The position numbers and the translations under genes are program-made. Below, piece after piece: positions 11,567-39,418 of a stretch of DNA of 42,961 nucleotides. The stretch spans positions 1-42,961 of IMG/VR virus record IMGVR_UViG_3300042549_003898, one strand, 5' to 3'. The notes under the pieces are model-generated. The model saw nothing but the letters and a program-made list of their open reading frames with translations. It had not been told where the DNA came from and did no database searches. The DNA comes from a virus. The first letter of the stretch is position 1. Every line of letters starts with the position of its first letter.

Positions 11567-11794
11567 TTATGGCTGCATAAGTGAGGACAGCTCAGCTTCT
11601 GTTGCGTTCTCGTACTCTGGAACGCCATCGTCGTTGGCTGTTTTGCACTGGTTATCTTCAAAAACCATAACCAAATAACCGTCAACGCTAGGGCCGCGCT
11701 TTATTCGCAGAACCCTGCCGCTTTCTGTCGTGTGTTCTGCGTACTCGCCATGCCATGCGCAGCATGTTCTTTGCCAGTTGATTGATTCGATCAT
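11567..11794 (-). CDS. hypothetical protein, 75 aa
   Basis: Last gene of the minus-strand late block, coupled by an ATGA overlap to the deacetylase tailspike gene. Hydrophilic with three Cys residues and no signal peptide. It may be a tailspike accessory or folding partner by position only. Confidence 0.6.
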   Translation of the reverse strand: MIESINWQRTCCAWHGEYAEHTTESGRVLRIKRGPSVDGYLVMVFEDNQCKTANDDGVPEYENATEAELSSLMQP

Positions 11795-13386
11795 TGCTTA
11801 ACTCCGTAATAAAGTTGGGTAAAGTTGCACATCTCGACTTCGCCAGCCAATTCTTTTTCTCGCATGTATTCGCAAATCTTGACAAACGAGCTTGCATACA
11901 TCAACAGTGGGTCACCAGTTAGCCCCTCGCCTGTGCTATCGTCACCAACCGTTGTGATGCCATGCCAGAACGGAAATATTGCGCAACCGTATGCGATAGC
12001 TAAGTCAACAAACTCTTGCATTTTGCTGAACTTCTGCCATCCGATAACATCTGACTTTGTTCCGCTAGTGATTCTCGCAAACGCTGGGTTGGTGCCGCTA
12101 CCCCAGTCAACGCTACCAATTTCTGTGGTTTCGTCAAGTCCCCATGCGGTAACATAGCTGCACTGATGGACTGTGTTGCGCTGCATCTTAAAGCCCAAGT
12201 CTCTCAGCACTTTTGCCACAAACTTGTTACTTTTTGAGCCTGGAGCGGCATAAAATTCATTGCCACGAACAGCGCCCATTTGAGCATACCATGCTTGAAC
12301 GCCAAGCATTTCGTATTTCAATTTGCCAGCGCCCATTAGCGTCATGTCTTTGTGATTCAGAGTGTGGTTTATAATATCCCACCCCTCGCTGCTAGGTATC
12401 ATTACTTGATCGCTAAAAAAACCACTCATGTTGGAGACAATTTCCGAGCCGGTGGTGTGAACTCGGAAAGGTATTGCAACATAGCCTTTCCATCCGTAAT
12501 TCTTGAAAAGAGGAAGCGCGATTTCGTTCAGGTTCGGCCCTGCGTCACAGCCAAAAACAATCTGTGTTTTCGAATCAAAATCAGTCATGATGCTGTCAAA
12601 ATACAGCTTGTGATTTAAACCGTTTGCTATGTCAATAGATAAGAATGTTAATTGATTGTCCTTGATATTGTTGAACGCACCTGTTCCGAATGCTGTGAAC
12701 GAAAAGCCGTTGAACTGCGTTTCAGAAACACCTGAGGCCGGAACGTATGCTTGCGGATTTCGCATAACGAACGTAAGGAAATTCCAGCCTTGCCTTACTG
12801 CTGTTGACGTCCATCCAAATATACCAGAGTTAGCTTCACTAACTGCTACAGGGTTTGTGCTGAAATTAACGTTAATACTGATATTTGTCGTTACGCTAGC
12901 GGCTGGCAAATCCACATAAACCCATAAACCAAACTTGCCGTTTAGGTTTTTAGTGATGATGTTTGTGCTTGGTGAGCTTAAAACTATGCGCGAAGTTGTA
13001 TTAACGGCAGGCTCAACAAGTAGCATTTCTGGCTGTGTTCTTGGCGTTACGCCTGTCACGTTCCCGCTGGCATCATAGCCAGTAAAGCCTTGAGTCACTG
13101 CTGGCGATCCAGTGCTAGCAGTCCATAAGTCACTGCCGAATGTAGCGACAACCCTGCCAGCCTTTTTTACCACTCTTGTTATTGCTATAGGCTGCTCTTG
13201 GTATAGCTCTGAGTTTACCGCTGGTACGCTTACGCCATCAATCAACCCATTAACCGCAGCAGCCAAATCCCCGTAACCAGCAGGAGCGCCAGCCGTATTT
13301 GGTAAATCTTTTAAAATAATCTCATCAGAAACCAAGCGAGGTATCTGAGTGTAATTCTTGCCATTAATGCGTGTTTTTGTGGTCAT
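11791..13386 (-). CDS. tailspike with polysaccharide deacetylase-like domain
   Basis: 531 aa. Residues 4-16 (KTRINGKNYTQIP) match the N-terminus of the protein at 29989-30579, suggesting a common virion-attachment tag. Residues about 90-270 are beta-rich, like a carbohydrate-binding sandwich. From about 275 a NodB/CE4-like deacetylase is read: VFGCDAG (277-283) at the motif-1 position, the metal-binding HTLNH (341-345), APGS (381-384) at motif 3 and FWHG (473-476) near the end. Motif 1 lacks the usual DD pair. It probably deacetylates host surface polysaccharide during adsorption. It lies downstream of the lysis cassette, where receptor-binding genes are often exchanged. Confidence 0.8.
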   Translation of the reverse strand: MTTKTRINGKNYTQIPRLVSDEIILKDLPNTAGAPAGYGDLAAAVNGLIDGVSVPAVNSELYQEQPIAITRVVKKAGRVVATFGSDLWTASTGSPAVTQGFTGYDASGNVTGVTPRTQPEMLLVEPAVNTTSRIVLSSPSTNIITKNLNGKFGLWVYVDLPAASVTTNISINVNFSTNPVAVSEANSGIFGWTSTAVRQGWNFLTFVMRNPQAYVPASGVSETQFNGFSFTAFGTGAFNNIKDNQLTFLSIDIANGLNHKLYFDSIMTDFDSKTQIVFGCDAGPNLNEIALPLFKNYGWKGYVAIPFRVHTTGSEIVSNMSGFFSDQVMIPSSEGWDIINHTLNHKDMTLMGAGKLKYEMLGVQAWYAQMGAVRGNEFYAAPGSKSNKFVAKVLRDLGFKMQRNTVHQCSYVTAWGLDETTEIGSVDWGSGTNPAFARITSGTKSDVIGWQKFSKMQEFVDLAIAYGCAIFPFWHGITTVGDDSTGEGLTGDPLLMYASSFVKICEYMREKELAGEVEMCNFTQLYYGVKQ

Positions 13387-15193: not shown

Positions 15194-15882
15194 AAAAATT
15201 CATCCCATTCGATAATCATTTTACCTGAGCCGCCAGTGCCTGAACCGGTTGAGCCGTAGCCTGAGCCAGCCCCAGAGTTTACAGCAGCAGCAGCAGACGC
15301 GCCTGCTGAGGCATCAGTGCCGCTACCAAACAGCCCGCAAGCACCGCCAGTGCCAGTAAGCGTTGACTGACCGCAAACATTGCCATTTACAGTGTCCGCC
15401 ATTACGGAGCCGGAATAAATAGGCGCAGAACTAGCAGCGCCAGTTATCATGCCTTTTGTCGGTCGAATACCAAAACCTGACAACAGATATTCGACCAAGT
15501 TTGAGATTGTGGTCGAACCGCTAATGATAAAATGCTGGCCGCCACTGCCGCCACGAAGCGTTAGCAGTGAGCCGAAAGATGTGTTGCCGCCAGCGTTGCC
15601 GTTGTTGTTTGTCACTCCAGCGCCTCCAGCGCCAATAGTTACAAGATTTGTTGAGCTTGGAGCTACAATGACTGGCGATTTTTCACAGTAAGCGCCACCA
15701 TAGCCGCCAGTTCCTCCGCCGCTACCAGCAGCCCCGCTGCCACCACCCGCACAACCAGTAATCCAAACAGTATTGCCAGCCAAGTTAACCGGAGCCGTCC
15801 AGTTTTGGCTAGAATTAATAACGATGGATTTTTTAACAACAACACTGCCGCCAACGATGGCGTTTAATGAAACATCAGGCAT
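15190..15882 (-). CDS. glycine-rich tail adhesin candidate
   Basis: 230 aa. Long Gly/Ala/Ser-rich repeats run from about residue 45 to the end (GGGSGAAGSGGGTGGYGGAY; GAGSGYGSTGSGTGGSG), ending in the strand MIIEWDEFL. Such polyglycine sheets occur in distal phage adhesins of the gp38 and glycine-rich-domain kind. It probably contributes to receptor recognition. It directly overlaps the 288-aa fibre gene upstream, so the two may form one fibre. Confidence 0.7.
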   Translation of the reverse strand: MPDVSLNAIVGGSVVVKKSIVINSSQNWTAPVNLAGNTVWITGCAGGGSGAAGSGGGTGGYGGAYCEKSPVIVAPSSTNLVTIGAGGAGVTNNNGNAGGNTSFGSLLTLRGGSGGQHFIISGSTTISNLVEYLLSGFGIRPTKGMITGAASSAPIYSGSVMADTVNGNVCGQSTLTGTGGACGLFGSGTDASAGASAAAAVNSGAGSGYGSTGSGTGGSGKMIIEWDEFL

Positions 15883-16748
15883 TACAGCACCTCTAATAAG
15901 TTAGTGCCGCGACACACAGCAACGAGCGTGCGTCCGACTGGTATTAATATTCTATCGCCAGCAGCAGCAGAACCGCGCGACCCTGTAGCTGTAAACGTAC
16001 CGGTTAGCAGCCCAACAAGTTGAGTTGAGTTTGTGTTGTTATGTACAACAATGGTTTCGTTTGCAGCAAGTGCTGGCAAGGTTACATCAGCAGCAGCGCC
16101 TGTTGCCGACACAAGATAAGACTTGTTAGCTAGCGCTGAGAATGATGCGGTTTTGCTAATCCACTTATCATCAACTGCTGGCTCCCACCACACAGAATCA
16201 ATCTGCGGCGTGTTGCCGATGTTAGCGGCTTGCCTCGACTTCCACAGGTTGCCGGTTAAGTCCTGAACAACCTTGCCAGCTGGATAGGTGATGGTAGCGT
16301 TGTAGAAACCAATAAACGCAACTCGCTCCCACGATGACGGCGAGCTAACTGGGTTGTTGTTTAAGTTGGACGGCAGCAACGACTTGTACAGGTTGCCGTC
16401 AGAGCCAGTAACTACGTTTATGATGCCGTATGTAACGCCAGCCTGCCACACCGTGAAAGCGTTTCGACTGCCTGCCCCATCAGCGCCAGCTGGGTCTTTC
16501 TCCCAAATCAGGTTGCCGCTAGAGTCTCGCAGCACTTCCTTATAGGTGCCATCCGTAAACACATCAACAGACAGAAAGCCGCCAGCATCCAGCGGCACAG
16601 GGTTCGGCGCTGGAGTTTGAAAGTCATCATCTAGATAAACATTCTTTGGTGTGGTCGTGCCTGTTTCGTAAAAATACAGACTGCCGCCAGATAGCGGCAA
16701 GCCTAGCGCGTTTAGAAATTGGAATTGTGGTGGTATGAATCTTGGCAT
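15882..16748 (-). CDS. tail fibre with head-binding-like N-terminus and carbohydrate-binding-like repeats
   Basis: 288 aa. Residues 1-85 (PLSGGSLYFYETGTTTPKNV, DAGGFLSVDVFTDGTYKEVL) match the N-terminal domain common in phage fibres and spikes that attaches to the virion. Two following units of about 45 residues share W/F..G..Y..G..V....GNLYKS/GNLWKS with a late W, like small chitin-type carbohydrate-binding modules. The C-terminus is beta-rich. Probably the proximal part of a receptor-binding fibre. Confidence 0.75.
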   Translation of the reverse strand: MPRFIPPQFQFLNALGLPLSGGSLYFYETGTTTPKNVYLDDDFQTPAPNPVPLDAGGFLSVDVFTDGTYKEVLRDSSGNLIWEKDPAGADGAGSRNAFTVWQAGVTYGIINVVTGSDGNLYKSLLPSNLNNNPVSSPSSWERVAFIGFYNATITYPAGKVVQDLTGNLWKSRQAANIGNTPQIDSVWWEPAVDDKWISKTASFSALANKSYLVSATGAAADVTLPALAANETIVVHNNTNSTQLVGLLTGTFTATGSRGSAAAGDRILIPVGRTLVAVCRGTNLLEVL

Positions 16749-18642: not shown

Positions 18643-19871
18643 AAGCCGTATTCCTTCAGAATGTCGGATTCGTTACGCGCTGCTGGTGTTTGCTGCTGGG
18701 CTGGAGCCTGCTTACCACCAATCGACTTTTCAAGCTTCTGTGAAATGTCAGACAGCCTAGCTCTTACCGCTTGCTCTGAGCCTTTAATGCCTTTCTCTGA
18801 CACGTTTAGGCCGGAAGACAAATCTCGCAACATCTTAATGTCTGTTTCTGACAGTACGCCGCTCATCAACTTTAAATTGTCAGCCGTTAGCAATGCCAGC
18901 AGCTGGTTGGCTTGGTTGATGATGTCTTGTGATTCTGGGTTGAATGTAGGCGTCATTGCGGCAATGCCTGTCACGCTGCCAAGGTTTGCATTGTTAGCGA
19001 GAGACTTGGTTAGCGCTAGAGCCTCTTGACTTGCCTGCATAGCCTTCTGCTTTTGCGTCTCAGCGTCTGCAATCGTTTGCTGACCTTTGGCCACTGCTTG
19101 CTGCTCTTGCTGCAGCTGCGCACCACCGGTAGCGGTCTGCTCAACAGCGCCAATCTTTGCAGCTTCACGAGCGCCGAGAATTGGGTTAAGACCCTGCTCC
19201 ATGCTCAATCTAGCCTCGCCAGCGCCAGCGCCACGAGCGAATGAGCCTGAGTATGGGTCAATGTTTCGCTTAATTAATTCCGCCCGCTTAGTGTCGCCAG
19301 CTGCCAAGGCTTGGTCGTATAGAGACAAGTTTTGACCAAGCGCTGTACTGCCTTGCATCTGACTAGGGTCATCAGGGAACACGCCAGCAGTGCGAAGCGT
19401 CTTAACCAATCCAGTTAAAGCATCCGCTCGCTGTGCGCCTTGCAAGTTTTTGATGCCCTGCAACGATTCAAATATGCCATCTGATTGACCCTTAAACACG
19501 TTTGAAGCTTCATCAATCAGCTTGTCCTGCACTTTAGGGTTGTCCTGCATGATAGCGCCAAGCATTGGCATGGCTGCTGTTTGCAGCTTTTGCATGCCGT
19601 ATTTCTGCTTGAGCATGTCCATTTCTTGCGCTTGAGCATCTAGCTGCTGACTACCCTGCTTGAGGTTCATCAACTGCTGAGCCGCCGCAGGGTCTTGCGC
19701 CATTAGCTGCTGAATGACTGCGTTTGCATCTTCACCTGCATTGATGCGAGCTTGGGCGTCTTGCAAGGCGGATTTGCTGCGCGACTGATTAATCATGCCG
19801 CCAAGCGCTTGACCTGCACGTAAGCCACCTTCAAATGATCGGCCTGTAATTGGGATTGATGGATCAAGCAT
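18639..19871 (-). CDS. DNA ejection protein, gp20-like by position
   Basis: 410 aa. Rich in Ala and Gln with extended helices (coiled-coil potential about 225-280). Overlaps both neighbours by 4-8 bases. Second of the three ejection-type genes. Composition and order resemble P22 gp20. No catalytic motif. Confidence 0.7.
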   Translation of the reverse strand: MLDPSIPITGRSFEGGLRAGQALGGMINQSRSKSALQDAQARINAGEDANAVIQQLMAQDPAAAQQLMNLKQGSQQLDAQAQEMDMLKQKYGMQKLQTAAMPMLGAIMQDNPKVQDKLIDEASNVFKGQSDGIFESLQGIKNLQGAQRADALTGLVKTLRTAGVFPDDPSQMQGSTALGQNLSLYDQALAAGDTKRAELIKRNIDPYSGSFARGAGAGEARLSMEQGLNPILGAREAAKIGAVEQTATGGAQLQQEQQAVAKGQQTIADAETQKQKAMQASQEALALTKSLANNANLGSVTGIAAMTPTFNPESQDIINQANQLLALLTADNLKLMSGVLSETDIKMLRDLSSGLNVSEKGIKGSEQAVRARLSDISQKLEKSIGGKQAPAQQQTPAARNESDILKEYGL

Positions 19872-21972
19872 GTGCCACCTCTTCAGATAGTTTCAGATAG
19901 TCTACCTTTAAGTAGCCGTTTTCGCTATGTACGCAATCAGGGAATTTTTCCTGAACCTCTTGAGCGATAACGCCGACAGATGCGGCACCACGTAAATTCT
20001 CTGGAATTGCTTCAATGTGTTTCCATGTCCACGTAAACAAGCCAACGGCACCATCAGCAATCTTGGTGATATTGTCTTTTAATCGCTCATCAGAAAACAT
20101 GCCGCCTGTTGCGCCCATAGACACCAGCCCAGCAAGTGTGCCGATGCCCTCTCTAGCGCCAGCAGCCTTCCCAACAGTGCCAGCCGCCTGCGCGTTACCA
20201 ATCTGCGTTTGCAGGTTAGCCTGATTAGAGCCTTGTCCGGTGGCTAAGTTGGCCAACAGCGTAGCTATTTGATTCTGCTGATTCGCGCCAGTAGTTGCGC
20301 CGCCGGTCAGTAACTGCATCAGTTGCGATGCGGTGCCAGAGTCTAAGCCTGCAAGCATTTGACCTAAATTCAGCTGATTGCCTGACAGTTGGCCGGTGGT
20401 TGCATTGGTTTGATTCGCAACGTCTCGACCCGCTTGACTGCGTAGACCAGATAGGTTTTGACCCATGCCGCCAATTGCGTTACCGATGTTTTGGCCGGTG
20501 CCGAATTGACCTTGTGCGATGTTGTTGCCGGTTTGACCAATAGCGCCTGACTCTAGCTGTCCAAGACCTGAGCGCAAGCCTGAGATATCTTGACCAGCCT
20601 GATTCAGCAGTCCGGCGCCAAACTGGCCAGCTTGTGTTGATAAGCCTGACATTTGACTACCAAGCTGACCCATCTGGCTAGCTTGTTGCCCGTACAGCTG
20701 ACCCTGCTGACCAGCCATCTGCGAAGTGATACCGGCGCCGACAGTGCCAGCCTGTTGCTGAAAGCCTGCTTGATTGGTTGACGCTTCCTGACCGCGCCCA
20801 GCCAGCGACCGTAAGTTTTCAAGCTGCTGTTGCTGCTGCTGAGCTGCTACGCCAATGCCTCTATCTTGTAGTGATGCAAGCGTTGAGCCTCCGCGCAAAC
20901 CGCCAGTTGCAGCGGCTTGGCGAGTAACGGCTTTTTCGCCCTGTTCGCGCAAGAACTTTTGACCAGGTGATTCGATGAATTGATTGATTGCCTGCTGCTG
21001 AGCTGCGCCACCCATTGCGCCGGATAGTGCCGCCTCTTGACCTAAAGCCTGCTGCCCTGTTTGAGCGTATGGATTAAGCGTGTTGACAGCTTGACCCGTG
21101 AATTGGTCGATGCGACCTAGTGCGCGATTCTCGCCCTGCTGCAATGCGTTAACGCCTTGACCGATAGAGCTTTGCACTTGCCCCATGGTGTTTTGCAAGT
21201 CTTGGCGACCTTGACCAAAGCCTTGGCTTGCCGCACCTAACGCCTGCGCACCGTATTGGTTGATTGCCTGCTCTGCGCCACCAAAGCCGCCACGCAAGGC
21301 TCCCAGCTGATTACCTAGCGCGTTTTGCATTGTGTTGGTGGCTTGGTTTAGACCGGTGCCGTATGCGTTAATTTGACCGCCGAGACCTTGTTGTAACGCC
21401 TGCTCAGCGCCAGCCAAGCCAATGCCTGACGTGTCAACATTCGATTGATACGGCTGAGCTTGCGGCATGACAGAAGGCGTCAGACCTTGCTGTTGCGGCA
21501 TCACTGCTGGCGTCATAACTCCGCCGCCTACGTTTGGCTGGCTAAGCGCTTTAGGCTGCGAGCCAACGCCAAACGGCATATCTTCTTGCGTCATGGTTGG
21601 TGTTTGTGCGCCCAGCGGCATGCCGATAGCCGGTCTTGCTCTAAGCCCTGTCATTTGTTGCATTTGCTGTGGTCTCCCGAGTAAAGCCGACATAGCCGCA
21701 TCGTTGCCGCCTTGGATAATTTGGTTAGAGTTGCCGAAAGCCTGATTCAGAATGTCAGCAGATGATGCCTTGCCCTGTCCGATAACGCCCGCCGCCTGTT
21801 GATAGGCTTGCATGATGTTGCCGTATTGTGGCCCCATTAAGTCCATGATGGACTTTCGCGCATCGTCGTAATATTGCTGCGTGATGGCCTGCGCTTCTTT
21901 GCCTGCTGCCACCTGCTGTTTGGCTGCGTTTTTCTCCGCACCGCCAAGGAATGTATCTTTAACCCAACCCAT
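19864..21972 (-). CDS. Gly/Gln-rich ejection-type protein with C-terminal S74 chaperone domain
   Basis: 702 aa. Residues 1-620 are extremely rich in Gln, Gly, Ala and Ser, with repeated AGQQGQLYGQQ-like units. The last 76 residues form a Peptidase_S74-type intramolecular chaperone: SDERLK at 627-632 keeps the Ser and the Lys five residues later used in endosialidase self-cleavage, followed by GVIAQEVQEKFP and YLKVDYLKL. S74 domains normally trimerise beta-helical fibres, so one on a gp7-position protein is odd. The ATG at 21972 was chosen for AGAGGTG just upstream; an earlier ATG at 21996 lies deep in the previous gene. Also possible: a fibre rather than an ejected protein. Confidence 0.7.
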   Translation of the reverse strand: MGWVKDTFLGGAEKNAAKQQVAAGKEAQAITQQYYDDARKSIMDLMGPQYGNIMQAYQQAAGVIGQGKASSADILNQAFGNSNQIIQGGNDAAMSALLGRPQQMQQMTGLRARPAIGMPLGAQTPTMTQEDMPFGVGSQPKALSQPNVGGGVMTPAVMPQQQGLTPSVMPQAQPYQSNVDTSGIGLAGAEQALQQGLGGQINAYGTGLNQATNTMQNALGNQLGALRGGFGGAEQAINQYGAQALGAASQGFGQGRQDLQNTMGQVQSSIGQGVNALQQGENRALGRIDQFTGQAVNTLNPYAQTGQQALGQEAALSGAMGGAAQQQAINQFIESPGQKFLREQGEKAVTRQAAATGGLRGGSTLASLQDRGIGVAAQQQQQQLENLRSLAGRGQEASTNQAGFQQQAGTVGAGITSQMAGQQGQLYGQQASQMGQLGSQMSGLSTQAGQFGAGLLNQAGQDISGLRSGLGQLESGAIGQTGNNIAQGQFGTGQNIGNAIGGMGQNLSGLRSQAGRDVANQTNATTGQLSGNQLNLGQMLAGLDSGTASQLMQLLTGGATTGANQQNQIATLLANLATGQGSNQANLQTQIGNAQAAGTVGKAAGAREGIGTLAGLVSMGATGGMFSDERLKDNITKIADGAVGLFTWTWKHIEAIPENLRGAASVGVIAQEVQEKFPDCVHSENGYLKVDYLKLSEEVAHA

Positions 21973-22435
21973 GCAACACCTCTGCTTTGGTTGCACCTAA
22001 ATACAGCTGGTCTATCAGCTGCCCTTGGTGCAAATAACTTAGTCTATTAATGCCCTCTAGCCTGAACCCGAAAGCCTCTGAGAAGGCGATCACATTCGGA
22101 TAGCAAATTGGTATAAGGGCGGTAAGTTTTTCAGCCTGCGAAAAGGTCTCGAAAAAGTATTTCAAGATTGCTTTTGCTATGTCTCTGGAGTGCGGTCTCT
22201 TGGCCGGTAGAACATGCGCGTGTATGTCAAATACTGCCGCGCCTTGTCGATTGAATATGAATACAGCTGCCAGCTCGCTATCAACGTCACATGCAATAAA
22301 TGCTGTTGCGTTTACATCAACGTCAATATTTTGACAGTCAGCCTCTGTAATTGTTTTCAGTATATCAGGCTGCGTAAGAACTGACAAAATTTCGTCAGTA
22401 TCAAACGTCCTGCGAGCAGCTATAGCAGCAACCAT
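21959..22435 (-). CDS. GNAT-like protein, gp14-like by position
   Basis: 158 aa. The middle (VFDIHAHVLPAKRPHSRDIAKAILKYFFE, about 68-96) reads like beta4-beta5 and helix 3 of a GNAT acetyltransferase, and the end (ANVIAF-type segment, FGFRLEG) like its C-terminal half. P22 gp14-type proteins (DUF2824) sit at this point before the ejection genes and have this fold. Whether it acetylates anything is unknown; a head or tail assembly role is inferred. Confidence 0.7.
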   Translation of the reverse strand: MVAAIAARRTFDTDEILSVLTQPDILKTITEADCQNIDVDVNATAFIACDVDSELAAVFIFNRQGAAVFDIHAHVLPAKRPHSRDIAKAILKYFFETFSQAEKLTALIPICYPNVIAFSEAFGFRLEGINRLSYLHQGQLIDQLYLGATKAEVLHGLG

Positions 22436-22668
22436 CCGGCAGTGTCTCCCTGTGGCGTGCGCTTAATCCAGACGTCATTCGTCAAAATATTGACGTACAT
22501 AGTCAGCCTGACGGCATCAATAACGCCAACCGGCGAACCTTCACCCTCGATGCCATTCAGCAGGCTAGATACGGTTTGCATCCAGTTATAGAACTCGTCG
22601 TTCGGCTTACCATCCTGCTGAATGTACGGGCTGTTTCTATTTGGCGGTATCGACTTTTTATTTGACAT
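22420..22668 (-). CDS. small virion-associated protein, 82 aa
   Basis: Begins MSNKKSIPPNRNSPYIQ and has a central helix (FYNWMQTVSSLLNGIEG) followed by beta strands. An in-frame ATG at 22686 would add six residues. It occupies the place of the P22 gp26 needle gene but is far too short and lacks needle heptads, so it is not assigned as one. Overlaps both neighbours. Confidence 0.6.
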   Translation of the reverse strand: MSNKKSIPPNRNSPYIQQDGKPNDEFYNWMQTVSSLLNGIEGEGSPVGVIDAVRLTMYVNILTNDVWIKRTPQGDTAGWLLL

Positions 22669-24112
22669 ATTCACCCACCAATCCAATCATCGAGCATTGA
22701 ACCTTGTCCGACATTTCAAACTTAAACATGCGGGAATTAAGGCTGCGCCCGAGCGAGTACCAAGTGACCTGCTGACTGTACTGACCAATGGTGCCGATGC
22801 TGCGAGGCGATTCAAAGCTCCATGTATAGCCGCCATCGTCGCTGTATGACATTCTGATTTGCGGGTCTGGCGTGCTGCTGTCGCCTTGACCAGGATTAAC
22901 TAGCGCCTCGATTTTGCGCCAGAATAATGGGCCAGAAGCCTCTTTGAATGGGCCAGCTACACCGGTGCGCCGGATGTTGTTACCATACTCAGAAAAGTAA
23001 GTTGTACGCATGTCTCCAATGGAGCCGCCTTCAGAGTCGCCAACAAGATAGCGCCCATAAGCCTGACAGATGCAGTTGACGCGCCAACGCTGCTTGTTAT
23101 CAAGTCCAAACGATTTGCGCTCATGCCATACGCTAGAGCCCTTAAGCTTTGATGCCAGAGCATCATAAACAAACGACATGCCCTTGAGATTTAAGCACCA
23201 GAAAATAGCGCCGTCTTGCGAGTACGAAAGCGCGAAAGCATCTCGCAGCTCAGTCGGGCTTGTGCGCTGCAATACTGCGTCGATAGCGCCGTTGCTGATG
23301 CGAGCAAAGCCGTTTCCGTCAAAGGCGTATACAGATGGCTGACCGCCAACGTCCTGCCCGAGAAAGGCGAACGTAGAGCCAAAGTTAGCCACTGAGTATT
23401 TGGCAATGCAGCCGATACTAACAACGTAGCTACGCTGAAATGGGAACTGCAAGCCACCCGAGTTGGCATAGACCTCTGTAGTGGTTTGCCCCATCAGAAA
23501 TAGCTTTCCGCCGAATGCGTGATTGGTGACTAAGCCGTCAGGGTCTGATTCAGCTTCTGTAAAGTCCAACCCGTCATACGTTAACCCGTCATTTAATGCT
23601 GAGTTAAACGCTGTGCGCTGGTCTTTGCCAACATGCACAAAATAGCCGTCGATATACTTCACTTTGACTGATGGCCCAAGGTCGTTATATGCAGCAGATG
23701 TTATCTGCGTGAGTGTGCTGGTGGCGATGTTGTACACGTAGCCGACCGATGCAGGAACAACGATACAGATTTGGTCGCCATTGGTATCAATGCTAACAAG
23801 CCCAACACCGTTGATGGCGCCGAGGTCGGTAACACTCAAAACTTCATTGCCTAGCGGGTCAAAGCTTTGATTCAGCCTGTACAGCTTCTTGCCATTGACG
23901 AAATACGGAATACCATCAACAACAATTCCGCCACGGTTTGGCTCGTCGTCTCCAGTGTTGAATAGCTCAACCAATCCTGGAGTCGGCAACCACTGCGATT
24001 CAGTCAGCGCGTTAGTTTCTGGGATATAAACATACCAATTAACCAGCTCTTGGCTGGCTATTGGTTTAATTGGTGATTCGTACCAGCCTGAGTTTATCGG
24101 CAAATAAGGCAT
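22658..24112 (-). CDS. tail hub / DNA-stabilisation protein, P22 gp10-like
   Basis: 484 aa, close to P22 gp10 (472). The start MPYLPINSGWYESPIKPIAS with QELVNWYVYIPE resembles packaged-DNA stabilisation proteins, and the body is beta-rich (propeller-like) with repeated GNGF/DGNxF turns. It follows the gp4-like gene as in P22. It would close the portal and build the tail tube base. Assignment by length, N-terminus and order. Confidence 0.75.
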   Translation of the reverse strand: MPYLPINSGWYESPIKPIASQELVNWYVYIPETNALTESQWLPTPGLVELFNTGDDEPNRGGIVVDGIPYFVNGKKLYRLNQSFDPLGNEVLSVTDLGAINGVGLVSIDTNGDQICIVVPASVGYVYNIATSTLTQITSAAYNDLGPSVKVKYIDGYFVHVGKDQRTAFNSALNDGLTYDGLDFTEAESDPDGLVTNHAFGGKLFLMGQTTTEVYANSGGLQFPFQRSYVVSIGCIAKYSVANFGSTFAFLGQDVGGQPSVYAFDGNGFARISNGAIDAVLQRTSPTELRDAFALSYSQDGAIFWCLNLKGMSFVYDALASKLKGSSVWHERKSFGLDNKQRWRVNCICQAYGRYLVGDSEGGSIGDMRTTYFSEYGNNIRRTGVAGPFKEASGPLFWRKIEALVNPGQGDSSTPDPQIRMSYSDDGGYTWSFESPRSIGTIGQYSQQVTWYSLGRSLNSRMFKFEMSDKVQCSMIGLVGEYVK

Positions 24113-25029
24113 TAGTACCTCGATATTTCAATTACTACGCCGTCGCCATCGTTATCAAACGCAAGCGCGGAGGCTAGATACTCGTCGGCTTTCAGCTTAA
24201 TTGCCGACTGTCTCGCAGCGTCAACCATGTATTCGTCGGATAATGACACCGCCAATAGATAAGACAAAGCCAGCAGCCATTCGTCTGGAAAATCTACATT
24301 GTCGATATTTGTTTCGTTGACGATAAACGGACGCTGAGCAGTGAAGCGTAAGACGTTTTTGTCAGAATAAGGCGTTGGCCATAGGTACATTTTGCCGACA
24401 GGTATTTGTGGATCGTAATACCAATTAGACGCGCTGCCCTGCGTCAGCTTAACCGGCTGGTCAAAGTAAGTGTCACGACTCATGCGCTCAACTGGAACTT
24501 CTGAGCTGGTCGTAGAAATGGCAAACTGAGCGTTGCGAACTCTAAGCGCTCGCTGTGCTACGTCAAAAAACGAGTAAACTAAATTACCTGAATTTGCGTT
24601 AGCTGGCAGCGGTGACTGCAAAGTGATGACATTGCCAGCTGGTGCGCCATTAACGACTGTATAAAACGAATTTCCGTCATTGTCGAATACCGCAACGGAG
24701 TCGCCGCTTTGAATGCCAGCAGCGCTATTAACGGTAACTGCTGAAGCTCCGGCGAGCGCATTGGCGCCCAATGACAGAACCTTTAAATATTCCTGCGTTG
24801 TGATGTAGGTCGCGCCTGCGCCCATCTCGTAAGACGGCACGCCTTTCTTGCACAGTACAATACACAAGTCTTCTAACCACAAGTGATTGTATTCAGTGGC
24901 AATCCATGCGGTAACATAGTTCAGCCCCTCAAACGCATAGTTGCGGTCACTAGCGCTTAATGGCTGGTTTTTATCGACCACTCCGAGCACTCTAAGCGCT
25001 TTGTTGATGATTGCAAGAGCCGTAGCCAT
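24112..25029 (-). CDS. head-tail adaptor, P22 gp4-like
   Basis: 305 aa. The N-terminal region ALAIINKALRVLGVV and YVTAWIATEYNHLWLEDLC is typical of gp4/gp6-like connector proteins that bind under the portal. A beta-rich insertion (about 70-160) makes it longer than P22 gp4 (about 166). TAATG overlap with the gp10-like gene. It probably recruits the hub to the portal. Confidence 0.7.
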   Translation of the reverse strand: MATALAIINKALRVLGVVDKNQPLSASDRNYAFEGLNYVTAWIATEYNHLWLEDLCIVLCKKGVPSYEMGAGATYITTQEYLKVLSLGANALAGASAVTVNSAAGIQSGDSVAVFDNDGNSFYTVVNGAPAGNVITLQSPLPANANSGNLVYSFFDVAQRALRVRNAQFAISTTSSEVPVERMSRDTYFDQPVKLTQGSASNWYYDPQIPVGKMYLWPTPYSDKNVLRFTAQRPFIVNETNIDNVDFPDEWLLALSYLLAVSLSDEYMVDAARQSAIKLKADEYLASALAFDNDGDGVVIEISRY

Positions 25030-25289
25030 TAAAGTTCATCTCCTGAAGTTGGAGTATAAAAGCGTAAATCATCATCGTTTTCAGACTCAGGTCGCGCATC
25101 TTTTACCGCCTGCCGGTCAACATAGCCGCGAATGTTTAGTTGTGGGTGTTTCGGGTCGTAGCACTCGCCGCATGCAAGTAGATTATTCCATTGCATCATA
25201 CAGTCTGAGCGCTTGTAGACAAGCCCGCAGACGTCACAACGGACATTGTGATCGCCTGCAATATAAACCGTCCGCCCTGATGCAGTCAT
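25029..25289 (-). CDS. small zinc-ribbon-like protein, 86 aa
   Basis: Two Cys pairs (CDVC at 18-21, CGEC at about 40-43) with a further Cys between fit a zinc ribbon. Small proteins of this type recur just before the gp4-like gene in podoviruses. Role unknown. It starts at the stop of the 94-aa gene and ends at the ATG of the gp4-like gene. Confidence 0.7.
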   Translation of the reverse strand: MTASGRTVYIAGDHNVRCDVCGLVYKRSDCMMQWNNLLACGECYDPKHPQLNIRGYVDRQAVKDARPESENDDDLRFYTPTSGDEL

Positions 25290-25573
25290 TAGAACTGCTC
25301 AACGATGTTGACTTTGCCTGTACCTGTACCGCTAAACTCAAGCGCAGTGACCGGCTGATTGACCTCGCCGACAGCGTTGGCGACTAAGCTTAACGCACCT
25401 GCCGCTGGGTCTGAATAAGTCACGGCTTCACGCTGGATAGCGCCAGCCGTAACCTTGACAACCAGCGCAGCATCGGTAAGGTTTTGGATTGTGTAACAGT
25501 CAACGCTTGCGCGGTGATTCGTTGGGTACACAACAGCCGCAGCCGTTGGTTTTGTAATGCTACGCTGAGCCAT
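25289..25573 (-). CDS. hypothetical virion protein, 94 aa
   Basis: Beta-rich throughout (AAVVYPTNHRASVDCYTIQN, LVVKVTAGAI). No charged helices. Possibly a decoration or neck-associated protein given its place between the 149-aa protein and the zinc-ribbon gene. Confidence 0.6.
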   Translation of the reverse strand: MAQRSITKPTAAAVVYPTNHRASVDCYTIQNLTDAALVVKVTAGAIQREAVTYSDPAAGALSLVANAVGEVNQPVTALEFSGTGTGKVNIVEQF

Positions 25574-25584
25574 GATTCAACCCC

Positions 25585-26034
25585 TTATAACACGTTAGAG
25601 CAGATTGCAGTAACAACAGCTGTGCCGACGAATTGCGCGAAGTCAGCGCCAGCTAGGGTGTAAGTAAACTTGTTGTTTGTGCTGTTTAACGTGATAGCTG
25701 GAAAAAGTGGAGTGCCAACAGCGCCAACTGCCGCAACTGATGTTGCGCCTAAGATGTTAGCTGGTGCGCCACCGATGCCGACTGTCAGCGTTTTAGTTGC
25801 TGCTGCCGCTTCTGCTGTGGTCACGTCGATGTAAGCAGAGATAACCTGGATTGATTTGGTGCCAGCTTCGATGTTAGTAGTTTGCAGCGCACCAGAAGCT
25901 ACCCGAGTTAGCGGGATTTCAAACGTCTTGATAAACGTGTCGCGGGTGTTTACTGAGTTAGTGGCTTTATCTTTTTCTTGAAAGCCGCCCTCAAGGGAAA
26001 TGTTTGTAAAACGAGTCTGACGATAACGTGCCAT
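25585..26034 (-). CDS. hypothetical virion protein, 149 aa
   Basis: Begins MARYRQTRFTNISLEGG and continues as an Ala/Thr/Val-rich beta protein, typical of a small head decoration or tail-associated protein. GAGG lies before the ATG. It is first after the repeat-marked promoter at 26085-26122, which implies that this promoter leads the tail and ejection gene set. Confidence 0.6.
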   Translation of the reverse strand: MARYRQTRFTNISLEGGFQEKDKATNSVNTRDTFIKTFEIPLTRVASGALQTTNIEAGTKSIQVISAYIDVTTAEAAAATKTLTVGIGGAPANILGATSVAAVGAVGTPLFPAITLNSTNNKFTYTLAGADFAQFVGTAVVTAICSNVL

Positions 26035-28241: not shown

Positions 28242-29606
28242 TTACAAGCCTAGGTAAATGAATTTGCCAAAGGCTATGTATGGTGGGAGATGTGTTGTTT
28301 GTGTGACATTGCCATTCAGGCTTGTAGTTGTATAACCGTGAGTGTGGTTTGCGTTTTGTGAATTAGATGTCTTAGTAGGTACGTCGATGGTGACAAGGTG
28401 GTTGTGCAAAGTGCTTAGGCCATCAATATCTCTGTCTGGGGAGCTTAAAGCGGCATACGACTGGTCAGAACCAGCCATTGTACTACCATTGTCACGGAAC
28501 ACTGAGCTTGTGCTTGCAAATGCAAAGGTGTGTGGTCTTCCGCTCGATGTGGCATAGTCAGAAGCAGTAACCTCTGAGATAGTGTAAGCGTTAGTGGTGT
28601 GAGTGTGACCATTAGATTCGGTACCAGTGTTACCGGTTAACGTAAAGTTAGGCAATGCAGAACGCGCTATGGTTAATGAACCCGCTGATTGACCCACAAA
28701 CACCGCAGAACCATCAGCACCCATTGCCAGCTTACCAACGGTATCTGGAAGGTATGACAAACCACTACCTAAAGAGCTTGCAGCAGCCTGTTGAGTGGGT
28801 GTAAGGGAAGACACTGGGCGTCCATCCATTAACAACCATCCGTTATGATCATCTTTCCTGTAGGCTTCTTTTATATCACCAATCTCATGCGTGCCGACCA
28901 CAGCATCCGTAAACGTCCGGCTAGTTGTTCTACGCCAAGGAGCTGCCGCTGTGACGCCAGGACGGCACTGCATAAGCGCTCCGGTATCTTTGCGGATAAT
29001 GCGGGTTGCAATGGAGTCACCTGCTCGAACGTCTAGCGGGTACTCAAACGGAATCGACAGCAATGCACCCGCGGTCCATGACGGTATTTCTACGCGAGCA
29101 ATCTCGACGTTCCCTGCTGTAAATTCTACGACCCACGTACCACCCGCGGCGGCGGTGTCGGCAGGCATCACCTCAATCTTAGTAAAGCTCAGGCTAGCCG
29201 CAGGCGTAAAACTCACGGCATACGGTATTGGTGTACCAGCGGGGACGAGTGCGCCGTTAGGCTCCGCGACAGCCTGCGCGGCAAACTTCCGAGATGATGG
29301 CTCGATAATTATCGTGCCGTCAGTGCTTTGACCCTGCCACAAGGGGAAGAACGCCAGTCCGGTAAACTCATTCTTAAATACTACGTTTTGACCGGCAGAA
29401 CCTATGCTGTGAACGCTCCCAAGGTGGAAAGACCCGACGCCGGTAGTTAAGGCTGTTTTAAACCATGATCCGTCCGAGTTTTGCTCGGCAATCTTCTCTG
29501 TACCCTTCCAAAGCTCAAGTGCGCCGTTTGACTGGTTTAATTTGTATTCGTAACCATCCGGTAGCGCACCAGCACCGCCGCCTACCCCGCCTGAAATTAA
29601 AGACAT
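28242..29606 (-). CDS. tail fibre with phage tail-collar-like C-terminus
   Basis: 454 aa. Residues about 1-240 are beta-rich. From about 243 a collar-type domain is read: GDIKEAYRKDDHNGWLLMDG, LPDTVGKLAMGADGS and the late LPPYIAFGKFIYL. Several HxH motifs (GHTHTT, NHTHGY) resemble the metal-binding shafts of trimeric fibre tips such as T4 gp12 and gp37 and the T5 L-shaped fibre. A likely receptor-binding or short fibre protein. It is placed between head genes and the gp4-like connector genes, away from the other fibres, and ends its own transcript with a terminator. Confidence 0.75.
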   Translation of the reverse strand: MSLISGGVGGGAGALPDGYEYKLNQSNGALELWKGTEKIAEQNSDGSWFKTALTTGVGSFHLGSVHSIGSAGQNVVFKNEFTGLAFFPLWQGQSTDGTIIIEPSSRKFAAQAVAEPNGALVPAGTPIPYAVSFTPAASLSFTKIEVMPADTAAAGGTWVVEFTAGNVEIARVEIPSWTAGALLSIPFEYPLDVRAGDSIATRIIRKDTGALMQCRPGVTAAAPWRRTTSRTFTDAVVGTHEIGDIKEAYRKDDHNGWLLMDGRPVSSLTPTQQAAASSLGSGLSYLPDTVGKLAMGADGSAVFVGQSAGSLTIARSALPNFTLTGNTGTESNGHTHTTNAYTISEVTASDYATSSGRPHTFAFASTSSVFRDNGSTMAGSDQSYAALSSPDRDIDGLSTLHNHLVTIDVPTKTSNSQNANHTHGYTTTSLNGNVTQTTHLPPYIAFGKFIYLGL

Positions 29607-29614
29607 AAAACCCC

Positions 29615-29845
29615 CTAAACTAAATCATACTGAGCGCCACCAGTTGGCGTGATGCGGATAGTTGCGTTGCCGCATGTAAGCACAAAGCCGCCGTCTGATG
29701 ATTTGCTGTCAGTCTGAACCCATAAGTTTGTGTCTTTATCTAGCAAAGCCTCAACGGTTACGCTGCCGCCATTGGCTTTTAGAATCAGAGTCCTTTGGCT
29801 GTGCGCTGGCATTGTTGGTGGAAATGTCGTCTGCGTGGTAAACAT
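29615..29845 (-). CDS. hypothetical protein, 76 aa
   Basis: Short beta-rich protein (LILKANGGSVTVEALLD, FVLTCGNATIRITPTGG) directly upstream of the collar-fibre gene and downstream of the structured spacer. Possibly a fibre or head accessory. No family recognised. Confidence 0.6.
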   Translation of the reverse strand: MFTTQTTFPPTMPAHSQRTLILKANGGSVTVEALLDKDTNLWVQTDSKSSDGGFVLTCGNATIRITPTGGAQYDLV

Positions 29846-29988: not shown

Positions 29989-30579
29989 CTATTTATAATA
30001 AAAATCATTGTTTGTGTAAACGCTAAGCTGTGCAGATGGCGCAGGGGTCAAGCCATAAGCCTGAAGCGCCGCGCTCGGTATTGATGGTACAAGGTCGCCA
30101 AAGTCGGAGCCTGTCGAGCTTCTGGCAAACATAGAGCGAAGCTTTATGCCGGTTGGCAGTGTTAATGATGAGAAGTCAAAGAAAACGTCTTGCTGGTTGG
30201 CGTTCTCTAGTCGAATCTCGATTGTGTTACCAAGGATTTGCCATGACGCGCCGCCATTCGAACTTAGCTCAACCCAAAAGAAAAGGCTAGATGTGCCAGA
30301 AGCACCAGACCTAGCGGCGCGAAGCCTGCTTTTAAATAGGAATGGACCGCCCTTTAAGATGGTTAGCGTGCCGTTAGCGTCAACTGATAACAATCCGCCA
30401 GGCGATGTTCGTGCTGCCCCGTATTTAACTTGCTTTGGCGTGTCAATTGGTGAGCCTGACTGTGTGGTCTGGTCAACAAATGAATCGTATAGATTTGAGC
30501 CAGCAGACTCATTAATGAGCTTGCCGACAATCAGCGTTGGTATTTGGGTATAATTTATGCCGTTAATCCGAGTCTTCAT
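29989..30579 (-). CDS. virion protein sharing the tailspike N-terminal tag
   Basis: 196 aa. Its N-terminus, KTRINGINYTQIP, matches the deacetylase tailspike (KTRINGKNYTQIP), after which the sequences diverge. The rest is beta-rich (LFFWVELSSNGGASWQILG; VFFDFSSLTLPTGIKL). A GTG at 30591 would add four residues; ATG 30579 is preferred. It lies right after the coat gene and its terminator. It may be a head fibre, a tail decoration or a second adhesin docking to the same site as the spike. Confidence 0.65.
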   Translation of the reverse strand: MKTRINGINYTQIPTLIVGKLINESAGSNLYDSFVDQTTQSGSPIDTPKQVKYGAARTSPGGLLSVDANGTLTILKGGPFLFKSRLRAARSGASGTSSLFFWVELSSNGGASWQILGNTIEIRLENANQQDVFFDFSSLTLPTGIKLRSMFARSSTGSDFGDLVPSIPSAALQAYGLTPAPSAQLSVYTNNDFYYK

Positions 30580-36725: not shown

Positions 36726-38420
36726 TTAGTAACCTAGGCTACCCGTCTTGTTGTGGTGGTTGCGGTCTTCATAATAATCAAAGTCATCATGCAGTTCAGG
36801 CGCCTCTAACGCCATCATCACAGCGTCGGCGATGTTTGGGCTAGATATTCCTAGCTTCTTCATGTCCTCTTTGCTCATCATCTGAATCATTCCTGATGAG
36901 TTGTGTTTCTTCGGTATGCGGCAAACCTCTGAGCGAAGTTTTTGCAGCTGCTTGATATTTGAACTAAAACTGATTAAGTCGTCAGGGTCTGACATTTCGC
37001 CAAACATGACTGCGCGGTAAGTCTTATAGCAGCGGTCGCGCAAATTCCAGTAATTCTGTGCGCGTTTGTTCTTGAATGTTTCTTTGTTGGTTTTTATCTT
37101 GGCGGTGTAGTTAACTTCTCCACGGCTTTCGTGTGGCGGCTGGTATGGCTTGTCAGGGTCTGACGCTGACCCCGAACCCCTGAATTGCTTAACATGAATT
37201 TGTTTACCCTGAAACCACTGACTGAACTGTCTTTGCAAGCCTACGCCCATACCGTCACAGTCCCACGTAAACAAGTCAACGCCGTAGCCGATTGCCATCT
37301 CTGCCGCTTCATCTGCTGAGCTGTTAATGTCTGGCTGGTCAATCTCTCCAGCTGCAAAAAACACTGAGCCATAGCGACCAGCGTAGCCTTTGGCGTCTGG
37401 GCCGGTGTCGGCAGGGTCAAAAGAAAACACCTTGCTGCCTCTCGGAGTTATTCCAAGCTTCTTGTGTGCGTCAACGCAAGCGTCAAACCATTCAGGCAGA
37501 ATGATTGAGCCGTCTACGCTGTCGTTGTACTTCCCAATCCAGATATGGTCGTACAGTGCGCGAGGCTTGTTTCTGTAGTCGTATAAGCGCTCTTGCTCAA
37601 GCCCTGAATCTGCATACCACGGGTTATCATCGTAGTTAACTCGAATGATTAGGTGTAAATCATCTTCCGCCCACCCTTTACGCTCTAGCTCCGCTTCAAA
37701 CGGTTTAAGGAATCGCTTGCTGAATGAATCTTCACTTGATGAAGGGTTGGCAATAAAAATCATCTGAACGCTATTAAGCGCTTCAATGTCTTTGTTTTCG
37801 TCTGATTCTTTCTCGACAATGAACTTTTCAGGCAAGCCAGCTTTTGCTTTGTTTCGCGCTGTCGGCGTTAATGCGGTTAATGATTCTTCAGAAATGAACT
37901 GCGCTTCTTCAACGATAAACCTCCGAAAGCCTTGCGCTGATTTGATTGATGACGGATTACGCGCCAAACCTTTAAACCTGAACCCGCCCTCGCCGTGGTT
38001 GATTTCGTTGTTTAGCACCTCAAAGCCTGACAACCCTATTCGGTCAACCTCATCCTTGATTGTGCTATGCATCGACTCGCTGATAGAGTTTTGAAACTCC
38101 CGCAAGCAATACACTTTATCTGCAAAGTCTTTTACTCCGGCAAGTGCAATGTCAACCACCTGGATTGATTTACCTGAACCCCTGCCGCCGTATATAACAA
38201 CAAAGCGCTTTTGTGTATAAAGCACTGGCTCAAGCACTTTGGCTATGTAGATTTGCGGCTTGTCGTTAACTTCTTTCCACTGCGAGCCACTGCGCTTAAC
38301 GCACTTGAGCAACCCTTCGTTAGGGCAGACAATGCCAAACACTGTTGATTTGTCCAGTTGGCGTCTACGCTCTTTTTCCTGGAGCAAAAGCAGTAGCTGC
38401 TCTTTTTGTGCTCTATTCAT
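36726..38420 (-). CDS. terL: terminase large subunit
   Basis: 564 aa. ATPase: Walker A GGRGSGKS (78-85) and Walker B FIVEEAQ (168-174) with adjacent catalytic Glu. Nuclease domain: FSFDPADTG (332-340), FTWDCDG (384-390) and a C-terminal ADAVMMALE acidic site, the three-Asp RNase H-like pattern. Family looks like Terminase_3 (PBSX/P22 gp2-like). It cuts and packages DNA, probably by headful, which fits the circular assembly. The start overlaps the TerS stop by four bases. Confidence 0.95.
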   Translation of the reverse strand: MNRAQKEQLLLLLQEKERRRQLDKSTVFGIVCPNEGLLKCVKRSGSQWKEVNDKPQIYIAKVLEPVLYTQKRFVVIYGGRGSGKSIQVVDIALAGVKDFADKVYCLREFQNSISESMHSTIKDEVDRIGLSGFEVLNNEINHGEGGFRFKGLARNPSSIKSAQGFRRFIVEEAQFISEESLTALTPTARNKAKAGLPEKFIVEKESDENKDIEALNSVQMIFIANPSSSEDSFSKRFLKPFEAELERKGWAEDDLHLIIRVNYDDNPWYADSGLEQERLYDYRNKPRALYDHIWIGKYNDSVDGSIILPEWFDACVDAHKKLGITPRGSKVFSFDPADTGPDAKGYAGRYGSVFFAAGEIDQPDINSSADEAAEMAIGYGVDLFTWDCDGMGVGLQRQFSQWFQGKQIHVKQFRGSGSASDPDKPYQPPHESRGEVNYTAKIKTNKETFKNKRAQNYWNLRDRCYKTYRAVMFGEMSDPDDLISFSSNIKQLQKLRSEVCRIPKKHNSSGMIQMMSKEDMKKLGISSPNIADAVMMALEAPELHDDFDYYEDRNHHNKTGSLGY

Positions 38421-38803
38421 CGACTAGACAGCTCTGCGATTTTCTTTTCTAGGTCTTCATCAGATAGCTTGTTGATGTCGATCGAACCTGAATGCTGTAT
38501 CTCTTGCTTTTCGCGCCATTCATCTGGAGCCATGTTTTTAAGGCCAAATATGCAAAGCGTAGCGTTGCCGCCACCTTCAACCGCATTTAGTCGGCTTATT
38601 TTCTCCCACCAAGTAGCGCATTTTGACTTGGCAATCTTTACGGCTTCCGAAAACTCTGGGTTGGCAGACATCCACTCGTTAACTGTTGAGCGCGAGCAGT
38701 CTACTGATGCAGCAAAGGAAGTGAGGCTTGCGCCCTCTGACATGTGAGCAATGACCTGCTCACAATATTCTGGCTTGTAACTTGTTGGTCTACCACCTGC
38801 CAT
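38417..38803 (-). CDS. terS: terminase small subunit
   Basis: 128 aa. Starts MAGGRPTSYKPEYCEQVIAH, then an HTH-like segment SLTSFAASVDCSRSTVNEWM (26-45), a helical middle and a charged C-terminus. This is the GRPT-KY type DNA-packaging small subunit, which recognises the pac site and feeds DNA to TerL. Directly upstream of terL. The pac site itself was not located. Confidence 0.9.
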   Translation of the reverse strand: MAGGRPTSYKPEYCEQVIAHMSEGASLTSFAASVDCSRSTVNEWMSANPEFSEAVKIAKSKCATWWEKISRLNAVEGGGNATLCIFGLKNMAPDEWREKQEIQHSGSIDINKLSDEDLEKKIAELSSR

Positions 38804-38836
38804 CTCTCGGCACTCCTATTTGATTCTCTGTGTTTG

Positions 38837-38864
38837 AGTATAACCCATCTGCTGGAAATGAAAA
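38837..38864 (-). promoter_or_regulatory. weak promoter candidate for the packaging genes
   Basis: On minus TTTTCA lies 16 bases before TATACT (-10, 38837-38842), between the upstream terminator and TerS. The -35 is poor, so an activator or read-through may be needed. It lacks the GCCAATAAATTGAC repeat. Confidence 0.35.
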
Positions 38865-38884
38865 AGCCGCTTGTTAGGCGGCTA
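38857..38884 (-). terminator. terminator between accessory and packaging genes
   Basis: AGCCGC (38865-38870) pairs with GCGGCT (38878-38883), followed on minus by TTTTTCATTT. It ends the small-gene transcript from 40785. Confidence 0.85.
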
Positions 38885-38888
38885 GTTG

Positions 38889-39209
38889 CTAATGAGTTAC
38901 AGGGTTAAAAACTACCGGAAACCATCTTGGTGATTTATACGCTTTGACCTCTTTAGCAATATCCATAAAAGTCTCAAAGCCATCAAGCTGATAAACTAAC
39001 CTTGTTGATGGCGTCATCTTTATTGCGTTTTCATTCACAAGCTCTTGCAGAGCTTTTCCCGCTTCGGCAGATAGCCTAATCCAGAAAAACATATTAGTTT
39101 CAGGCGTACCCCACGCGTTATCGCCAAAGAAGCCATCAATATTCTGCTCAAGCTCGTAAAACGACACTGATTTTCTTTTTTGGATAAATTTTAATATTTC
39201 TTGTTTCAT
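38889..39209 (-). CDS. hypothetical phage protein, 106 aa
   Basis: Helical N-terminus resembling a winged-helix (EILKFIQKRKSVSFYELEQN), then FFWIRLSAEAGKALQELV and a C-terminal SPRWFPVVFNPV. Widespread phage-type accessory protein without known function. Start in an ATGA overlap with the previous stop; followed by a terminator. Confidence 0.65.
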   Translation of the reverse strand: MKQEILKFIQKRKSVSFYELEQNIDGFFGDNAWGTPETNMFFWIRLSAEAGKALQELVNENAIKMTPSTRLVYQLDGFETFMDIAKEVKAYKSPRWFPVVFNPVTH

Positions 39210-39418
39210 TCGTATCGCACCCCTACTTCGTCGAGCGCATCTTCAACATCTGCAAGCGTAACCACATGCCCACACTCATCTCCAGCACCTTCAGGCAACT
39301 TAACCACCAGCGACTGGCGGGATGCTTGCCAGCATTCAGCAAGCAGCGCTTTTGTATGCGCCCCGCAATATTCACTATCCGGTTGGTTCTTAAACCAATT
39401 TTCAAAGTCTGTCTTCAT
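39206..39418 (-). CDS. hypothetical phage protein, 70 aa
   Basis: GGAG lies seven bases before ATG 39418. The sequence MKTDFENWFKNQPDSEYCG with ALLAECWQASRQS is a common small phage accessory type; the role is unknown. ATGA overlaps at both ends. Confidence 0.65.
   Translation of the reverse strand: MKTDFENWFKNQPDSEYCGAHTKALLAECWQASRQSLVVKLPEGAGDECGHVVTLADVEDALDEVGVRYE

Follow-up and report, generated by a model that had tools for sequence, protein, structure and literature searches.

A short N-terminal peptide shared by otherwise unrelated proteins of P22-like phages: a probable virion-docking module

Background

This locus raises the question of why two proteins of one phage, with bodies that differ, should begin with almost the same peptide. 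The stretch of DNA analyzed here (hereafter the window) is 42,961 nucleotides long and corresponds to an entire IMG/VR virus record. A first-pass annotation had described the pair as unrelated virion proteins, one of them a tailspike, sharing 13 N-terminal residues, and had proposed that these residues form a docking tag allowing spikes to be swapped. Our main finding is that the peptide is an N-terminal module placed in front of many kinds of body within one phage lineage, and that it probably serves to dock adhesins and enzymes on the virion.

Results

Two proteins of the window with one N-terminal peptide

As with every window gene given with coordinates below, both genes lie on the minus strand, and the plus-strand translations at the two loci are full of stops. 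P0001 (196 aa; 29989-30579), which has the gene for the major coat protein (PF25209; 30628..31548) directly upstream, has its ATG at 30579 and begins MKTRINGINYTQIP; an alternative GTG 12 bases upstream of this ATG would give 200 aa. Its N-terminal tag, residues 1-22 (MKTRINGINYTQIPTLIVGKLI), occupies 30514..30579, and its body, residues 40-196, occupies 29989..30462 and, counted in the 200-aa reading, matches phrog_3614 (a family with unassigned function) from residue 42 on. P0002 (531 aa; 11791-13386), located after lysis genes that were named from the sequence by eye, begins MTTKTRINGKNYTQIP, its start reading MTTKTRINGKNYTQIPRLVSDEI. Its N-terminal module, residues 1-50 (13237..13386), is common to other spikes until about codon 50; its body, residues 51-531 (11791..13236), combines a middle region without known fold and a polysaccharide deacetylase domain, PF01522, at residues 281-401 (12184-12546; E 1.7e-7). 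In the profile search this domain scored 31.6 bits, above the cut-off of 23.1, and P0002 is on this basis a putative polysaccharide deacetylase.

The tag pattern has exactly two matches in the whole record. The two proteins agree at 12 of 13 aligned residues, their genes at only 4 of the 13 codons, so the likeness is no recent DNA copy and has been kept at the protein level. When the 45-aa N-termini of 59 non-overlapping ORFs of the window were compared (1,711 pairs), P0001 and P0002 formed the top-scoring pair, at 72 with a runner-up at 39, and the highest score among 100,000 shuffled pairs was 56. A tag profile built without the window rows recovered both among 553 ORFs of nine genomes (P0002, E 7e-18; P0001, E 1.1e-8). 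The near-identity reported by the first-pass annotation is thus real, and its 13 residues proved too short a measure: related proteins share about 22 residues in the P0001 type and about 50 in large spikes. The two bodies indeed differ (phrog_3614 versus PF01522), whereas 'virion protein' and 'tailspike' are presumptive labels for both.

An N-terminal module on diverse bodies

Searches of IMG/VR and of whole records identified 10 distinct tagged proteins and one near-copy, on seven distinct contigs. The position of the tag, the window's two proteins included, is N-terminal in 11 of 11, and the bodies behind it fall into seven or more unrelated families: a deacetylase, two GDSL types, a pectate lyase, another hydrolase and two small knobs. 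The tag therefore does stand at the N-termini of spike or fiber genes in other phages, as the earlier proposal would have it. G006 encodes a tagged GDSL protein after an Rz-like gene and a tagged pectate-lyase-like protein after the gene for a 94-aa protein; G007 encodes a tagged 485-aa protein (phrog_16653, hydrolase; phrog_32409, tail fiber) after the homologue of that 94-aa gene, and a tagged 203-aa protein (phrog_8270) whose gene is flanked by those for the gp4-like and gp10-like proteins. G011 has a tagged GDSL protein after Rz, and G003 a tagged P0001-type protein of which the short contig G004 holds the near-copy. L057 carries another GDSL type, whose body matches phrog_9703 ('head decoration'), and L055 a truncated tagged ORF with a different body. 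Tagged genes occupy four genomic places. Their bodies match PF01522, PF13472, PF12708 and phrog_16653/32409, all receptor-binding or polysaccharide-modifying types; for the two small knobs, such a function is predicted.

The consensus of the tag is K-x-R-[IF]-x-G-x-N-[YH]-[TS]-Q-[ILV]-P, with M1, R6, N11, Q14 and P16 invariant in eight aligned tags, and the long module continues in its second half with LPxTAGAPxGYGDLxxAVNxLI. A 24-column profile retrieved exactly eight of the 553 ORFs at E ≤3e-13, the next being at E 0.43, in a nine-genome search that covered 40,000 bases each of G006 and of a Melvirus record (W01). Family-profile matches to tagged proteins nearly all start past residue 42 or so. 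Two exceptions start earlier: in the G006 pectate-lyase-like protein, phrog_13144 matches from residue 21, and in the near-copy (L005) phrog_3614 does so from residue 35.

Two tagged proteins per phage were found in three of the genomes examined, and in each they form the top N-terminal pair: 72 versus 39 in the window, 144 versus 38 in G006, and 118 versus 52 in G007. Only one tagged protein was seen in G003. The two tags of G006 (KTRINGKNYTQIP and KVRFAGVNHTQLP) clearly differ, the tags within the window pair and within the G007 pair being closer to each other, and tag subtypes are independent of genomic site.

Outside these phages, nothing related to the 51-aa module turned up among 50,697 records of isolated phages (a single row came back, a microvirus with an E of 6). 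Of the stretches picked up from 84,980 bacterial and archaeal genomes, 33 with the tag pattern and 52 with P0002, none was confirmed. The sole other exact matches in the IMG/VR pattern scan, an internal KTTINGVYYTQIP in one unrelated protein on L011 and L012, were rejected as chance look-alikes, and a look-alike on L018 was likewise set aside. The start of the window's 149-aa protein (QTRFNN) weakly resembles the tag; with the profile reaching E 1.3 at best, for one homologue, this likeness was dropped. No convincing shared adhesin N-terminus was found within G001, G002, G005, H6/1, RIO-1 or, over its full length, W01, and the top N-terminal pair of CPP1m is formed by two small ORFs that lie away from its structural genes.

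Bodies exchanged behind a constant tag

DNA comparison of tagged genes in register reveals where the likeness stops. The modules of G011 and L057 are identical at 149 of 150 bases and the sequences are about random beyond; for the G006 pectate lyase and L055 the figure is 137/150, and for P0002 and the G006 GDSL gene 129/150, each followed by random identity. Identity thus collapses at the module end in the in-register pairs compared (P0001 and P0002, out of register in DNA, were compared by codons instead). These borders indicate that bodies have been exchanged between related phages with the peptide retained.

The distribution of the P0001 body points in the same direction. This body is present in seven further records (G002 and G004 included, their bodies being the same as those of G001 and G003, respectively). 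Identities are 81% between the window and G001, 85% between G003 and G005, and 65% between the window and G003. Among these carriers, the tag occurs only in the window and G003/G004, and four other N-termini are found elsewhere. In a tree of six bodies, the tagged ones were united in 0 of 200 bootstrap trees; the grouping of the window with G001 had supports of 94 and 97, two inner branches stayed open and two rows were long. As the tag is in the window and G003 while their closest bodies lie elsewhere, the body tree conflicts with the tag. H6/1, RIO-1 and CPP1m encode homologues of the second knob, the 203-aa body of G007; their alignment starts at about residue 34-53, and they begin with other N-termini. 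The RIO-1 homologue lies among tail genes. The part of the first-pass proposal that concerns swapping is thus supported, by DNA borders and discordant body trees; docking is a probable reading. On sequence grounds, the tag stays with its phage lineage, and the bodies behind it are traded.

A model of P0001 (AF2, four sequences) had a mean pLDDT of 55.8, with the tag below 50. Structure comparison of this weak model returned mostly TNF/C1q jelly-rolls, at Z scores of 6.3-7.4, below the caution line of Z 8, and with rmsd values of mostly about 3 Å across 105-120 residues; the CBD of the short tail fiber of cyanophage A-1(L) was also matched (Z 7.4). Our best guess from this low-confidence model is that the P0001 body is a trimeric TNF/C1q-type knob.

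The tagged lineage and its candidate sockets

The tagged genomes have in common, at 35-96% identity, the portal, coat and cement proteins, the 149-aa (25585..26034) and 94-aa (25289..25573) proteins, gp4-like and gp10-like tail proteins and a 288-aa protein (the head region is absent from G011, which is partial). The untagged carriers of the P0001 body (G001, G002, G005 and W01) are without nearly all of these, with one exception, a match of G005 to the 288-aa protein at 28% over 109 aa. Shared in tagged genomes and lacking in untagged carriers, these proteins place the tag in one virion lineage, P22-like phages with short tails whose members here come from metagenomic contigs. In G006, G007 and L055, the gene immediately before a tagged spike gene encodes a homologue of the 94-aa protein.

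The 288-aa protein (15882..16748) is a candidate socket. It has a P22-type tailspike head-binding domain at residues 8-89 (PDB 9vyg, E 4e-10; 7eeq, E 1e-7), is conserved across at least its first 193 residues or so in the tagged lineage, and may be an adapter at the usual spike site. A PDB search with the region following this domain gave no match, and the AF2 model of the protein was too poor for structure search or to reveal a docking domain. No docking partner similar to T4 gp10 was found, the head-binding domain being the only part to match the PDB; with so poor a model, this absence is no evidence. Alternative candidate sockets, both conserved in the tagged lineage, are the tail protein at 24112..25029, which we take from its position and conservation to be gp4-like, and the gp10-like protein at 22658..24112 (PF11134; phrog_578, head closure).

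The lineage does not use the tag everywhere. G003 and G015 belong to it and have main spikes that share a different start (MPISKLTSLPFPPP), so that G003 combines one tagged knob with one untagged spike, and the tag was absent from the 29.7-kb fragment G015, as it was from G012-G014 (4-8 kb). Long spikes of G003 (37246-39417, that is, L036 17246-19417) and L076 (11079-13046) share the N-terminus MPISKLTSLPFPPPAVPPFSASGQGLVASVNQLID, a candidate second anchor in the tagged lineage.

Neighboring genes and gene pool

Several genes near the tagged pair and its candidate sockets deserve description. The ejection-type protein at 19864-21996 carries at its end (residues 635-689) a Peptidase_S74 chaperone domain, a type typical of tail spikes; the annotation of H6/1 gp17 is alike. 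Between the tail-closure and ejection genes, all tagged genomes have an acetyltransferase-like gene (GNAT by eye; 21959-22435 in the window), and H6/1 gp15 (pfam11039) is at the equivalent place. Right after the P0001 region comes a 454-aa protein with a tail-collar-like end, again by eye (28242-29606), for which eight compared genomes gave no homologue. Adjoining P0001 is a 76-aa protein (29615-29845; phrog_8454); a weak homologue adjoins the P0001 body in G005 (L006), and the two may therefore travel together. Phages that have the P0001 body in common but are otherwise unrelated also share a protein family of about 200 aa that by eye resembles homing endonucleases (L002, 11649-12254; L006, 2532-3113; G003, 7853-8434), a hint of a common gene pool. 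In L063 (4913-6052), an unrelated phage, a collagen-like protein of 379 aa has a P0001-type knob for its C-terminal tip, and its gene is flanked by portal-like and protease-like genes.

Discussion

A probable docking module

The modularity of the peptide, its N-terminal position, the swap borders and its association with the virion lineage rather than with the body all emerge from the sequence comparisons, and the reading that best suits them is that the peptide is probably a virion-docking module for adhesins and enzymes. Proteins of these kinds that are devoid of a large anchor would start with a plug of 22-50 residues, and we infer that this plug binds one conserved virion protein of the lineage. 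The likeliest socket would be at the tail, either the 288-aa protein with its head-binding domain or the gp4/gp10-like collar. Recombination would replace the bodies, keeping the plug and changing everything downstream. As two proteins of one phage bear the same plug, mounting on equivalent sites is probable, and mixed occupancy would follow. Counting against docking are the other N-terminus on the main spike in both G003 and G015, the lack of tag in G015 and the single tagged protein of G003, as well as some P0001-body relatives in head-gene clusters, the 'head decoration' match of the L057 body, the low pLDDT of the tag, and the poor model of the 288-aa protein together with the missing PDB match for its later part. 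A universal tag rule is contradicted, as the main spike of some relatives uses another N-terminus.

Other readings explain part of the data. The module might be a folding or trimerization nucleus that starts the spike trimer without a virion partner: the bodies are all of kinds that one would expect to form trimers, the LPxTAGAPxGYGDLxxAVNxLI half could nucleate one, and a comparable stretch, GxGLVASVNQLI, occurs in the other N-terminus used by G003/G015. This is improbable, since the same bodies exist without the module in other phages, P0001-type proteins have only its first 22 or so residues, and tag presence tracks the virion backbone, not the body. Less probable still is that the shared start is a functionless relic of recombination or a DNA hot spot. 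Exchange borders do coincide with the module end, and recent pairs are near-identical in DNA, but the disparity between residues and codons in the window bespeaks constraint at the protein level, and the window's two copies stand in different genomic contexts.

Two further readings are variants of docking, and their probabilities overlap with that of docking itself. Tagged proteins could be head fibers that dock on the coat or cement protein. The P0001 gene adjoins the coat gene, its body occurs in head-gene clusters of the siphophage-like G005 and of L063 (there on a collagen-like stalk), and the L057 body has its 'head decoration' match, which together make a head site possible; we nevertheless find it rather unlikely, because tagged genes also lie between the gp4-like and gp10-like tail genes and after lysis genes, the RIO-1 homologue of the second knob is among tail genes, and depolymerase-type bodies are typical of tails. 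Alternatively, tag subtypes could mark two distinct sockets, as the divergent tags of G006 and the K1-5/SP6 case, with two peptides for a single adapter, would suggest. We hold this to be doubtful, though a more serious candidate than the head site: the tag pairs of the window and G007 are closer, and the subtypes ignore genomic site.

Docking at shared virion sites can be extended to a tentative proposal, which we think possible but short of likely: the lineage-specific plug would be a standard mount, by which a short-tailed phage places chemically unrelated enzymes and knobs on one set of equivalent sites, giving mixed adhesins per particle or burst, and making any new body usable through some 22-50 residues. 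If so, unrelated adhesins would join one virion, the mount being inherited with the phage and the tip traded, and the tag would offer a sequence handle for adhesins missed by family models; both small knobs were previously proteins of unknown function. It would then become testable whether two different spikes bearing one plug occupy common sites within a particle.

Comparison with known systems

Domain shuffling in receptor-binding proteins (RBPs) is documented in general (PMC10684548), and mass spectrometry detected an abundant GDSL lipase, unseen by cryo-EM, in Peru-2 virions (PMC13320782), so such enzymes can be virion parts. Among the papers listed in our mainly open-access literature search, we met no direct precedent for a phage with two spikes that begin alike; a small sample in which KTRING was not found alongside tailspikes carries little weight. 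At the sequence level, P0002, the P0001 family and the module had no PDB match, in the same library that finds the 288-aa domain, and the P22-type head-binding domain, borne in the window by the 288-aa protein, was not detected in P0001 or P0002. The P0001 body and the G007 203-aa body belong to PHROG 3614 and PHROG 8270, and the outside relatives examined in these families have other N-termini.

The closest likeness is to short anchoring peptides. According to the relevant passages of Latka et al. 2019 (PMC6872550), second RBPs of KP32-like and KP34-like Klebsiella phages bear short conserved N-terminal peptides (29 residues in the KP32 type, the heptapeptide MALxxLV in the KP34 type), which are conserved while the enzymatic body varies, are thought to dock on a tail protein, and differ for each phage group. 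As in those phages, a short peptide at the extreme N-terminus is kept here over differing bodies; unlike them, the peptide has its own sequence, occurs on two proteins of one phage, counts small knobs among its bodies and has carriers at four genomic places. The sequence comparison was with the KP34 consensus as printed, which does not fit the tag. In K1-5, K1E and SP6, as presented there and in PMC6966330, gp46 and gp47 are mounted on the adapter gp37, the K1-5 peptides being of 7 and 11 residues (PMC6872550). Those phages, like ours with its two putative ones, have two RBPs without a large anchor of their own and with short N-terminal peptides; in the published descriptions the two peptides are different, whereas here they are the same. 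By analogy, the plug would work like the KP32, KP34, K1-5 and SP6 anchors, and what is new is its own sequence and the presence of the same plug twice in one phage.
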